Source: Candidatus Tectimicrobiota bacterium | Lineage (GTDB): Bacteria > JACPUC01 | Assembly (NCBI GenBank): GCA_016192455.1 | Contig: JACPUC010000026.1 | Span: 186,001-250,000 of the forward strand | DNA length: 64,000 nucleotides | Direction of reading: 5' to 3' | Shown: positions 6,827 through 10,611 of the stretch, in pieces | Numbering within the stretch: the first letter of the stretch is position 1 | Layout of the letters: each line of letters begins with the position of its first letter | Notes under the pieces: model-generated | The model's database searches: none | Seen by the model: only the letters and a program-made list of their open reading frames with translations | What the model was told of the DNA's origin: nothing | Program-made: the position numbers and the translations under genes

Positions 6827-7411
6827 ATGGAGATGCCGCGCAGCAACCTTCCACACCCGCAGCCGCTCGCCGGCTGGACCGGGAATCCCCTGCAAGGTGT
6901 TCCGCCGCCTCGTTACGCCTCACCCTACGCCGCCGGCGCCGCCCTTGGCGGCGTCCTCCTCCTCACCTTCCTGGTGATGGGGCATGGGCTGGGCGCCTCC
7001 GGCGCGTTCGCCCGCCTCGGCGTGGCCCTGCTCGGCTTGGCGGCGCCCGCGGCAACGAAGGCGCACGCCTACTTTTCGCTCTACCTCTCTCCGGACCGCT
7101 CCACCCTGAATGCCTGGATCGTCTATGAGGTAGTCGGCGTTCTCGTCGGCGCGTTCGTCAGCGGCCTGCTTGCCCGCCGCCTGAGGTGGGAGGCGGTACG
7201 CAGCCCCAACGCGCACCGCAGGCTGCGTCTGCCGCTGGCCCTGGTCGGCGGCGTCCTCGTCGGCTTCGCGGCGCGCCTGGCCGGCGGCTGCACGAGCGGC
7301 ATCGGCCTCTCCGGAGGCGCCGTCCTGGCGCTTGCCGGCTGGCTCTTCATCCTCTGTTTCTTCGCCGGCGGCTACCTTGCGGCCGCCGCGGTGCGGAGGG
7401 AATGGCAATGA
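6827..7411 (+). CDS. YeeE/YedE-type (thiosulfate/sulfur-compound) membrane transporter, first half
   Basis: A 194-residue membrane protein with about four or five hydrophobic segments. It carries the family signature AGGCTSGIGLSGG near residue 150, whose Cys is one of the conserved thiols used by TsuA-type proteins to relay thiosulfate. It is half the size of a full YeeE/YedE protein. The following gene supplies the complementary GGYxPGTS half, and the two overlap at ATGA (stop 7409-7411, start 7408), so they are translationally coupled and probably form one transporter. The substrate could be thiosulfate or another sulfur or selenium species. Confidence 0.82.
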   Translation: MEMPRSNLPHPQPLAGWTGNPLQGVPPPRYASPYAAGAALGGVLLLTFLVMGHGLGASGAFARLGVALLGLAAPAATKAHAYFSLYLSPDRSTLNAWIVYEVVGVLVGAFVSGLLARRLRWEAVRSPNAHRRLRLPLALVGGVLVGFAARLAGGCTSGIGLSGGAVLALAGWLFILCFFAGGYLAAAAVRREWQ

Positions 7412-8010
7412 TGCCCCTGACCTCGCTGAACTTCTTCTCCCCCTGGCTGGCAACCCCGGCCGCCCTCCTCCTCGGCTTCGGCTTCGGCTTCTGGCTGGAA
7501 CGCGGCGGCCTCGGCAACGCCCGCAAGCTCACCGGCATGTTCTACTTGACCGATTTCGTCGTCGTGCGGGTCATGTTCAGCGCCGTGGTGGTCGCCGCCT
7601 TTGGTCTGGCCCTCTTCCAGGCGCTGGGCATTCTCGACCTGAAGCTGGTCTACCTCCCCCCCCTGGCACTCGGCGGCATCATCATCGGCGGCCTGCTCAT
7701 GGGTATCGGGTTCGTCACCGGCGGGTATTGACCGGGAACCTCGGCCGCGGGCGCGGCCACGGGGAAGTGGGATGCCCTGGTGTTTATCGTGGGGATGGTG
7801 CTCGGGGTGTGGGGGTACGGCGCCGGCTATGCGCTCTTCGGGCCGCTGGGAGAGGCGGGTGATCTCGGCGTCATCACGCTGCAGGGCTTGCTGGGACTAC
7901 CGACTCTGGTCGTGGTGGTGGCGGCGGCGGCCCTCGCCCTGGTTCTCTTCTGGCTCAGCGCGCGCCTCGAGCGCCCCGCCCGGCAGGAGAAACTCCCTGT
8001 CCAGCAGTAG
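7408..8010 (+). CDS. candidate selenoprotein: YeeE/DUF6691-type transporter half with in-frame TGA at the conserved Cys
   Basis: The frame starting MMPLTSLNFF runs to a TGA at 7729-7731 and continues in the same frame to a TAG ending at 8010. Around the TGA the product reads GFVTGGY-U-PGTSAAGAATGKWDALVFIVG. Homologues carry GGYCPGTS at this point, so the TGA replaces exactly the conserved Cys (residue 108 of 200). Both sides have family-like membrane helices. A GC-rich hairpin begins 11 nt after the TGA, as expected for a bacterial SECIS. Selenocysteine insertion explains this best; a frame-preserving nonsense mutation at this one codon is the alternative. GCGGAGGGA precedes the start, and the gene is coupled to the upstream partner. 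No sel genes are in the window. Confidence 0.78.
7729..7760 (+). promoter_or_regulatory. UGA codon with candidate bacterial SECIS hairpin
   Basis: The TGA (7729-7731) is followed by a perfect 6-bp stem: GGCCGC at 7743-7748 pairs with GCGGCC at 7753-7758 around the loop GGGC (7749-7752). A further CC/GG pair lies outside a small internal loop. The apical loop begins 17 nt after the UGA and is G-rich, which falls in the range expected for bacterial SECIS elements read by SelB. In such a GC-rich genome hairpins are common, so the position matters more than the stem. Confidence 0.5.
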
Positions 8011-8182: not shown

Positions 8183-10315
8183 CTACTCTTCCTCCACCTT
8201 CCGCACCTCGCAGAGATGCCCGATCAGCCACGAGGTTCCCTCGATGGGATCGTACGGCGGTCCGTCGGGGATAACCATGCTGATGTTGCTCTCGAAGCAG
8301 CCGTAATCGGGGGCTGGTTTCTCCGGGTACCACCAGTAGCCGTAAGCGGAAACGACGTCCGGCGGCACGTTTTCCGTCACCTTGGCTCTCTGCTTGCACC
8401 GTCCAAATCCCGTCTCGATCCAAACCCAATCACCCTCGCGGATGCCACGCTCGGCGGCGGCGCGCTGGTGAATCTCGACGGTGGCGACCGGCTTGGTTTT
8501 GCGCAGCGAGGGGGAGTGGCGCTGGCGGCTGTTGAAGAACCGTGCCTCGCGCGGGGCGATGAGCTGAAGCGGATAGGCGCGCCGAACGTCCGAACCGGGG
8601 GCGGGGCTCCGGGGCAGCTCGTGGTGCACCGGCAGGGGTTCGTAGCCGTACCGTTCAAGGAGGGTGGAATACAATTCCACCTTTCCGGTCGGGGTGTTGA
8701 AACCGTGCTCTTCGTAAGCCTTGTACTTGATGGGAATGGCGAGCCGCCGCTGTTTCTTGAGGTCGTCGAACCTCATGTTCAGGCCGCTGACCTGAAAATC
8801 GAGAAACTCCTCGACACTGTTCCACGGGATAAAATCGTGCGGCAGAAGCTTGCGCGCCCGCATCTCCTTGGCCAGTTCAATGAAAATCTTGTTATCGTCC
8901 CAGGCTTCGCCCAGCGGCTCGATCGCCCGTTCGCTTGCCGGGATGTGCAGGGAATGCCACTCCGGTCCAATCTCCTCGCGCTCCAACCACGTAACCGCGG
9001 GGAGGAAGACGTCGGCCAGCTCCGTGGTGGGCGTCTGGAAACAGTCCACGGCAACGATGAGGTCGAGTCGGCGGAAGGCTTCCCGGACACGCTGTGGGTC
9101 GGGGGTGTTCAAGGCGTAGTTGTTGCCCGTGACGATGGCTCCCTTGACGCCGGAGTGGGCGGAGAGCATCTCGTCGATGACCAGGGAGTTATGACTGGTG
9201 GCCCCGACGCCGTTGGGACCGGTCCAGAGTGGAAACTCCCGAGCCCCGCGGGCCTCCGCCTCGATCGCTGCCGGCAGCCGCCACGCCTTGCCGAAGACCA
9301 TCTCTCCCCTGGACACGAACCCGTCAAGCCGCTTGGGGAGGAGGTTGCCTCCCTGTACGTCGATGTTCCCCGACAGGGCGACCAGCAACGTGATGCCGCG
9401 ACAGGCTTGCGTGGAGTTGGGTTTGCGGGTCAACCCATTGCGGGCAAACATGCAGGCCGGCTTGGTGGTGGCGTACAGCCGCGCCGCCTGCACCAAGCTT
9501 TCAGCCGGAACGCCGGTGATCCGTTCCACCTCACCGGGCGGGTACTTCTGAACGTGTTCCCGTAGCTGCTCGAAGCCGTAACACCAAGCCTTGACGAACG
9601 GCGTATCGTAGAGTTCTTCGTTGATGATGACGTGCATCATGCCCAGCGCCAGGGCCCCATCAGTTCCTGGCCGCACGGGCAGCCACACGTCCGCGCGCCC
9701 CGCCACCGTGGTTTTGCGCGGGTCCACGACGATGAGTTTGGCGCCCCGGTTGCACCCTTCGACGATCTTCTTCCAATAGGGGGGATGGGAAGCCTGAGGA
9801 TTGGTCCCCCACAGGAGGTAGCAGCGGCTGTGATCCAGGTCGTGATAGGCGAAGTGCGTGATCGGGCCCCCGACGGTCACATGATCCGCGACCATTCCCG
9901 GCCCTTCACACCACAGCGGCGTGGTGCTGACGATGTCGGGGCTGCCGAGCGAGCGGGTGAACAGCGTCGACATGATGCACCGGGAGGTTCCAGGGTATCC
10001 CGCGAACGCCACGATGGCTTTCGGGCCGTGTGCGCGGATGATCTGTTCGAGCCCATCGGCAACCCGCGTCAGCGCTTCGGGCCAGGTGATGCGGACCCAT
10101 TTCCCTGCTTCCCGCCCGCCCTCTTTCCACAAGGGCGAGGTGACGCGCTGGGGTGAGTAGGTGACTTCGTGAGCATTCGCTCCCTTGATGCAGATGCCAC
10201 CTCGATAGACGGGGTCTTCGGGGTCGCCCCTCAGCCCGCGGATGCGGCCCTCCGCAACATCCACCTCCAAATGACAATACATATAACAGTCGCTGCAAAT
10301 GCTGTGGCGGATCAT
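8183..10315 (-). CDS. molybdopterin (bis-MGD) oxidoreductase, DMSO-reductase family, orphan catalytic subunit
   Basis: A protein of 710 residues from the ATG at 10315 (GGAGG seven bases upstream). The N-terminal [4Fe-4S] motif is C7-x2-C10-x3-C14-x27-C42 (CSDCYMYC ... GGICIKG). The likely metal ligand is the Cys in PLWCEGPG. Motifs for the two pterins follow (LLWGTNPQASHP, LPVRPGTDGAL, and the C-terminal ETGFGRCKQRAKV region). The length resembles soluble family members such as acetylene hydratase, but the Asp next to that enzyme's cluster is Tyr here. No Fe-S or membrane-anchor partner is adjacent and no Tat signal is visible, so a cytoplasmic enzyme is likely. It is divergent from the nitrilase gene. 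Substrate unknown. Confidence 0.85.
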   Translation of the reverse strand: MIRHSICSDCYMYCHLEVDVAEGRIRGLRGDPEDPVYRGGICIKGANAHEVTYSPQRVTSPLWKEGGREAGKWVRITWPEALTRVADGLEQIIRAHGPKAIVAFAGYPGTSRCIMSTLFTRSLGSPDIVSTTPLWCEGPGMVADHVTVGGPITHFAYHDLDHSRCYLLWGTNPQASHPPYWKKIVEGCNRGAKLIVVDPRKTTVAGRADVWLPVRPGTDGALALGMMHVIINEELYDTPFVKAWCYGFEQLREHVQKYPPGEVERITGVPAESLVQAARLYATTKPACMFARNGLTRKPNSTQACRGITLLVALSGNIDVQGGNLLPKRLDGFVSRGEMVFGKAWRLPAAIEAEARGAREFPLWTGPNGVGATSHNSLVIDEMLSAHSGVKGAIVTGNNYALNTPDPQRVREAFRRLDLIVAVDCFQTPTTELADVFLPAVTWLEREEIGPEWHSLHIPASERAIEPLGEAWDDNKIFIELAKEMRARKLLPHDFIPWNSVEEFLDFQVSGLNMRFDDLKKQRRLAIPIKYKAYEEHGFNTPTGKVELYSTLLERYGYEPLPVHHELPRSPAPGSDVRRAYPLQLIAPREARFFNSRQRHSPSLRKTKPVATVEIHQRAAAERGIREGDWVWIETGFGRCKQRAKVTENVPPDVVSAYGYWWYPEKPAPDYGCFESNISMVIPDGPPYDPIEGTSWLIGHLCEVRKVEEE

Positions 10316-10611
10316 CCCCTGTCCTCCGTTCCGCGGCCTCCCCCCCTGCATCTTGCCTCGCCCGCAGGCACTACGTCAAACCCTTGAGCGCCGAAATCCT
10401 TCCTCAAATCATTGGTAGAGTACATCCCCTTCTCCTCACTATGTCAAGTCTAACTAATCCTCGGTACGGTTGCAGGGTGCGCATCGCTTGCGCCGGGGGC
10501 GCGCAGAGTGCTAGGCTAGAGCAACGCCGTCCTTCAACCCTGGAAGCCGCGGCACCCCCTGCCGGCATGCCGCGCATCACCCCCGCCGCCAGGCTGGAGA
10601 GGAGGATCATC

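Follow-up and report, generated by a model that had tools for sequence, protein, structure and literature searches.

The window, a stretch of 64,000 nucleotides of contig JACPUC010000026.1, carries two overlapping genes of interest on its forward strand (Table 1). The downstream gene was read from the sequence as a frame of 201 codons (7408-8010) with one inner TGA (7729-7731) and a TAG terminator. In its product the TGA stands in the context GGY-U-PGTS, at the invariant Cys column of the Sulf_transp family (PF04143), and there is no Cys elsewhere in the chain. An earlier note on this DNA had described a frame open through the TGA, with family-like sequence on both sides and the TGA exactly between GGY and PGTS, where relatives have Cys; both descriptions were borne out, the column in relatives being Cys or TGA. 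The partner gene upstream was also as described, with its own Cys signature (GGCTSGIGLSG) and an overlap at ATGA. GGAGGG is found just 5' of this overlap, which is likely to serve translational coupling, and the partner lies 5' of the Sec gene, in the same order, in most TGA loci.

Table 1. Features of the transporter pair in the window.
Feature	Position	Strand	Basis
C-half (PmpA-like) Sulf_transp partner, Cys155 (GGCTSG), TsuA Cys293 equivalent	6827..7411	+	PF04143; alignment with 6leo
ATGA overlap, partner stop / predicted selenoprotein start	7408..7411	+	read from sequence
N-half (PmpB-like) Sulf_transp membrane subunit, predicted selenoprotein gene, 200 aa with Sec108	7408..8010	+	open frame, single TGA; PF04143; AlphaFold2 model
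TGA codon 108, predicted Sec108, TsuA Cys91 position	7729..7731	+	column TGA/Cys in homologues; phmmer alignment to 8j4c
bSECIS-like hairpin, 6-bp stem GGCCGC/GCGGCC, apical loop GGGC	7743..7758	+	-11.7 kcal/mol; relatives

Family membership was assessed with the gathering cut-off of 27 bits that applies to both PF04143 and DUF6691 (PF20398). The Sec subunit scored 54.5 bits against PF04143 over profile positions 7-160 (the N-half) and the partner 83.2 bits over positions 177-309 (the C-half), both above the cut-off; these were the sole two PF04143 matches in the source genome. The score against DUF6691 was 21.9 bits, below the cut-off, so that of the original designation, 'YeeE/DUF6691-type', the first part stood and the second did not. 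Codon 108 was placed at residue 91 of TsuA by a phmmer alignment to 8j4c, counted through an alignment gap in a weak match (E 0.1), and partner Cys155 was placed on the GGC of TsuA Cys293 by alignment to 6leo 238-324 (E 9e-6). The three Cys of TsuA (22, 91 and 293) were not all recovered: Sec108 occupies the Cys91 site and partner Cys155 the Cys293 site. As in PmpAB, the pair consists of two short, neighbouring subunits that match the two YeeE halves, and a single conserved Cys position is found in each. In an AlphaFold2 model of the Sec subunit (pLDDT 82), residue 108 is flanked by one long and one short helix. The best PDB matches of this model were YeeE/TsuA structures (6lep, 6leo and 8k1r; TM 0.61-0.66, with weak Foldseek E-values of 1.8 and above), and no other fold ranked among its PDB matches. 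The prediction that the gene product is one half of a transporter has good support from the family and weaker support from the fold. The TsuA/YeeE models NF052577 and NF041049, whose cut-offs (400 and 645 bits) were set for full-length proteins, scored the window proteins at 20.5 and 39.4 bits and a full-length relative (L124) at 59.3 bits. No NCBIfam model reached its cut-off on six family members scanned, and genes of this kind are therefore likely to be mis-annotated as two fragments.

The relatives sample comprised 386 genomes, 70 of them with homologues. Among the loci checked from this unbiased sample, 35 distinct homologues covered the column, 31 with Cys and 4 with TGA (window included); neither TAA nor TAG occurred at the site in these 35. 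A TGA-specific DNA pattern was also scanned against 84,980 species genomes and returned at least 118 stretches. Among the matches listed, 109 of 118 were of PF04143 type with TGA in the same column (window not counted), a recurrence that excludes chance as the origin of the TGA in the window; the other nine were chance matches and were removed. Since this pattern demanded TGA, no TGA/Cys ratio was taken from the scan, only from the relatives sample and a search of Anaerolineae. The latter gave 22 close matches, of which 17 had an inner TGA and 5 lacked it; the column was checked in nine, four of which had TGA and five Cys. Cys/Sec pairs at the column, which the earlier note had suggested looking for among homologues, therefore exist. 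By record titles, the TGA carriers among the matches listed were mostly Chloroflexota; the others included Rokubacteria, Desulfosporosinus and relatives, Nitrospirota, Nitrospinota, Acidobacteriota, Pseudomonadota, SAR324, Latescibacterota, Spirochaetota, deltaproteobacterial groups and Methylomirabilota. Searches with the window protein itself found no related loci in genome contigs and viral contigs, where the peptide patterns were probably too specific, and no match in plasmids by tblastn; a phylum-level search returned the source genome as sole entry. In a tree built by a quick method, with many weak forks, at least 14 Sec/Cys changes were needed, 4 of them forced by well-supported branches, and the window sequence grouped with Rokubacteria and a deltaproteobacterium.

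Several variants of the site and of the protein were seen. In three Anaerolineae Cys orthologues (L178, L179 and L180) CAAP replaces UPGT, the rest of the protein being 56-59% identical. In ten TGA loci (L078, L086, L120, L124, L125, L133, L134, L145, L156 and L157) Sec would stand at the same site and 270-311 aa follow the TGA, forming a full-length YeeE-like protein; in three more (L095, L111 and L144) the 270-311 aa after the TGA are a half protein running into rhodanese-like neighbour sequence.

Selection downstream of the TGA was estimated from 39 disjoint close pairs of TGA genes. The pN/pS values of 0.02-0.57 indicate that the downstream protein is under purifying selection; the decayed downstream frame that had been named as evidence against the proposal was not seen, the frame being conserved in relatives. 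These data bear on the reading of the TGA as a true stop, whether in a pseudogene, through a sequencing error or as the intended end of a short protein of 107 aa. Neighbouring genes do use TGA as an ordinary stop, which would suit such a reading, but the same TGA recurs in more than 100 species, followed by selected sequence and a hairpin typical of TGA genes, in a genome with full Sec machinery, and this leaves it very improbable. Pseudogene and sequencing error were rejected on the recurrence of the TGA and on downstream selection; a base-call error at 7729-7731 is implausible given an identical TGA in so many species.

The hairpin after the TGA was examined in the window and in relatives. 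A 6-bp GC stem 11 nt downstream of the UGA, with a G-rich loop 17 nt away, had been noted before and was read again at these distances (stem 7743-7748 and 7753-7758, loop 7749-7752). The bSECIS model calls for a loop of 3-9 nt with G in loop position 1-2, 16-37 nt from the UGA, and an energy of -7.5 kcal/mol or lower (PMC13188914); the GGGC loop, its distance and its energy all lie within these limits. When the sequence after the UGA was folded, as had been suggested, the hairpin was within the minimum-energy fold of every stretch tried. Its energy alone was unexceptional against shuffles (z 0.2 to -1.8 depending on the stretch), so its support comes from relatives. There, a best hairpin with a small GG-containing loop 15-25 nt past the codon was found in 104 of 111 TGA genes versus 4 of 31 Cys homologues (Fisher 1.6e-18; energies MWU 4e-15; the sequences are related, so that these p-values overstate independence). 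The loops in TGA genes were mostly GGU or GGUC, 17-20 nt past the UGA, and compensatory base pairs occurred in several registers (C-G/A-U/U-A and G-C/A-U in the commonest, G-C/U-A/A-U/C-G in another). The five close Cys orthologues from Anaerolineae (56-71% identity) lacked the GGU-loop hairpin. Synonymous-codon shuffles gave a weak signal (mean z -0.8 versus 0.0 for Cys) because stem positions overlap conserved codons; the Cys homologues are the stronger control.

The source genome (4.46 Mb, 88% complete) was searched for selenocysteine machinery. It contains tRNA-Sec (75.5 bits, anticodon TCA), SelB (366 bits) with an adjoining SelA, identified in the translation by visual inspection, and SelD (389 bits); selA, selB, selC and selD, for which a search had been advised, are thus all present. 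The selD gene (L173, source-genome contig 3: 190907-191827) is itself interrupted in frame by a TGA, close to its start (VKVAG-U-AAK), and a hairpin with a GGG loop follows at 17 nt; it would be a second gene needing UGA to be read as Sec. Of 50 TGA genomes, 41 gave a strong SelB match, and 5 of the remaining 9 had tRNA-Sec (66-76 bits). SelB did not serve to tell TGA carriers from Cys carriers, being common in both: it was present in 28 of 43 Cys carriers in one sample and in most of those from Anaerolineae. Its presence in carriers was accordingly taken as capability, not association. Ordinary genes near the window pair, several of them confident, have TGA as their terminator, which means that UGA has not simply been reassigned. 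Decoding of the UGA as another residue (Trp, or near-cognate read-through) was rated the least probable reading of all, and nothing was found in its favour: the column was Cys in all non-TGA homologues examined and never Trp, and selB, tRNA-Sec and a Sec-type selD stand beside those ordinary TGA stops. Taken with the recurrence of the TGA and its hairpin, the comparisons identify the gene with high confidence as a predicted selenoprotein gene, in which the inner stop codon is almost certainly read as selenocysteine.

Gene neighbourhoods were used for the question of substrate. A molybdopterin oxidoreductase was found near the pair in about 70 loci, usually directly downstream; in these neighbourhoods, 48 loci also had a ferredoxin-type subunit and 38 an NrfD-type membrane subunit. 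A representative neighbour oxidoreductase has a Tat-like motif at its start (by eye), and its closest match was PhsA thiosulfate reductase (558 bits, cut-off 694). Cytochromes, Rieske-like proteins and rhodaneses recurred near TGA loci. In the window, a molybdenum oxidoreductase (8183-10351) with a Cys at the likely Mo-ligand position scored below the cut-offs of formate dehydrogenase and PhsA models; it lies on the opposite strand, convergent with the pair, and the sulfur operon context of the window is for this reason borrowed from relatives. A TusA/YeeD-type acceptor (PF01206) was not found in the 88%-complete source genome; such a protein was present in 11 of 14 control genomes. Transport of selenium or sulfur compounds, which the earlier note had suggested, is plausible. 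The PhsABC-like context in relatives favours reduced sulfur over selenium; thiosulfate, polysulfide, sulfane sulfur or a similar reduced species would most likely be the cargo.

Two other functions were weighed with Sec taken as real. The pair could move a selenium compound (selenite, selenosulfate or selenide), as proposed for YedE, which co-occurs with SelD (PMC5322559). Some neighbours resemble parts of selenite/tellurite (Ext) operons (an ExtM-like cytochrome and an ExtH-like rhodanese), and family members are weakly similar to the YedE models TIGR04112 and NF033796, but their scores of 18-48 bits fall far under the cut-offs (200 and 350 bits). The recurrent operon partner is closest to PhsA, and when yedE and further candidates were deleted in M. 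maripaludis, the results did not clearly point to selenium transport (PMC11097638), so selenium was considered an unlikely cargo. A sulfur sensor or redox relay, as opposed to a bulk importer, was judged somewhat less probable still. SoxT1B of Hyphomicrobium, which acts for SoxR, is a YeeE-like signal transduction unit (PMC11582611), and about 22 loci have an ArsR-family regulator in the vicinity of the pair; the neighbours in most loci, however, are respiratory and not regulatory, and next to the window pair there is no ArsR-type gene belonging to that cluster.

The best explanation of the sequence data, with a probability of roughly 85%, would be that the UGA is read as Sec by way of the hairpin, that the product is the N-half of a split YeeE/TsuA-type transporter and that the substrate is reduced sulfur. 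On the comparative evidence, SelB and tRNA-Sec would decode the UGA, aided by the hairpin directly downstream. The product would form the N-half, and that of the overlapping upstream gene the C-half, of a PmpAB-like membrane transporter, the two subunits being predicted to pair into one pore. In TsuA, Cys 293, 91 and 22 are thought to hand on thiosulfate in succession (PMC11073785); TsuA/YeeE cannot do without Cys91 and Cys293, and its two halves have their counterparts in PmpB and PmpA (PMC11582611). On this basis, the most fitting description of the window pair is a PmpAB-like transporter whose relay is formed by Sec and Cys. The relay would have two steps, partner Cys155 first and Sec108 in the middle position; Cys22 has no equivalent in the pair. 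With its lower pKa and stronger nucleophilicity, Sec should make transient binding of the substrate faster or looser; alternatively, a labile Se-S bond may allow a sulfur atom, not the whole anion, to be passed on. In two loci (L066 and L171) the conserved Cys of the partner is likewise replaced by TGA (DG-U-TSG), 422 nt 5' of the UPGT TGA, each with its own hairpin (loop AGUG or AGUGG). These are apparent double-Sec transporters, and both relay positions could accordingly be Sec. Whether these genes make up a widespread uncatalogued class, in which the middle relay residue of a sulfur transporter is Sec and sulfur passes the membrane by way of a covalent Se-S intermediate, often beside a PhsABC-type molybdoenzyme chain and sometimes with both positions Sec, is doubtful as a whole.

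Most well-studied selenoproteins are redox enzymes, and Sec is seldom found on a membrane transport path. Carriers number more than 100 species, including the cultivated Desulfosporosinus and Acididesulfobacillus, and close Cys orthologues exist, which makes the role of Sec versus Cys in the passage of a sulfur compound through a membrane directly testable. No description of Sec in the UPGT form was found in the literature, of which coverage was partial, so that an earlier mention cannot be fully excluded.

A YeeE/YedE thiosulfate transporter family selenoprotein (PF04143; WP_012471001.1), with Sec in GUxSG, was catalogued in a 2026 review (PMC13188914), and the family is also listed in PMC9312934. 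It shares with the window protein the Pfam family and a single Sec at a conserved transport Cys, but its Sec is at the Cys293-type site of the other half, whereas that of the window is at the Cys91-type site (UPGT); the window partner has Cys, not Sec, in the corresponding GGCTSG. The TsuA/YeeE thiosulfate transporter (6leo, 8k1r) is alike in fold and in the Cys91 and Cys293 positions; it is one chain with a relay of Cys 22, 91 and 293 and no Sec, whereas the window has two chains with one Sec and one Cys. PmpA and PmpB of Serratia are likewise two short subunits that represent the C- and N-halves of YeeE, and their role as a sulfur-transporting heterodimer is itself a proposal (PMC11582611); they are about 130 aa long, whereas the window subunits have 194 and 200 aa and the PmpB-like one has Sec for Cys. 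YedE/FdhT (TIGR04112, NF033796) is distantly related and has a proposed selenium link (PMC5322559), but it is described with a conserved Cys, not Sec, and the window scores lie far under its cut-offs. The UPGT selenoprotein is thus a real, widespread and new form within the already known family of YeeE/YedE selenoproteins.
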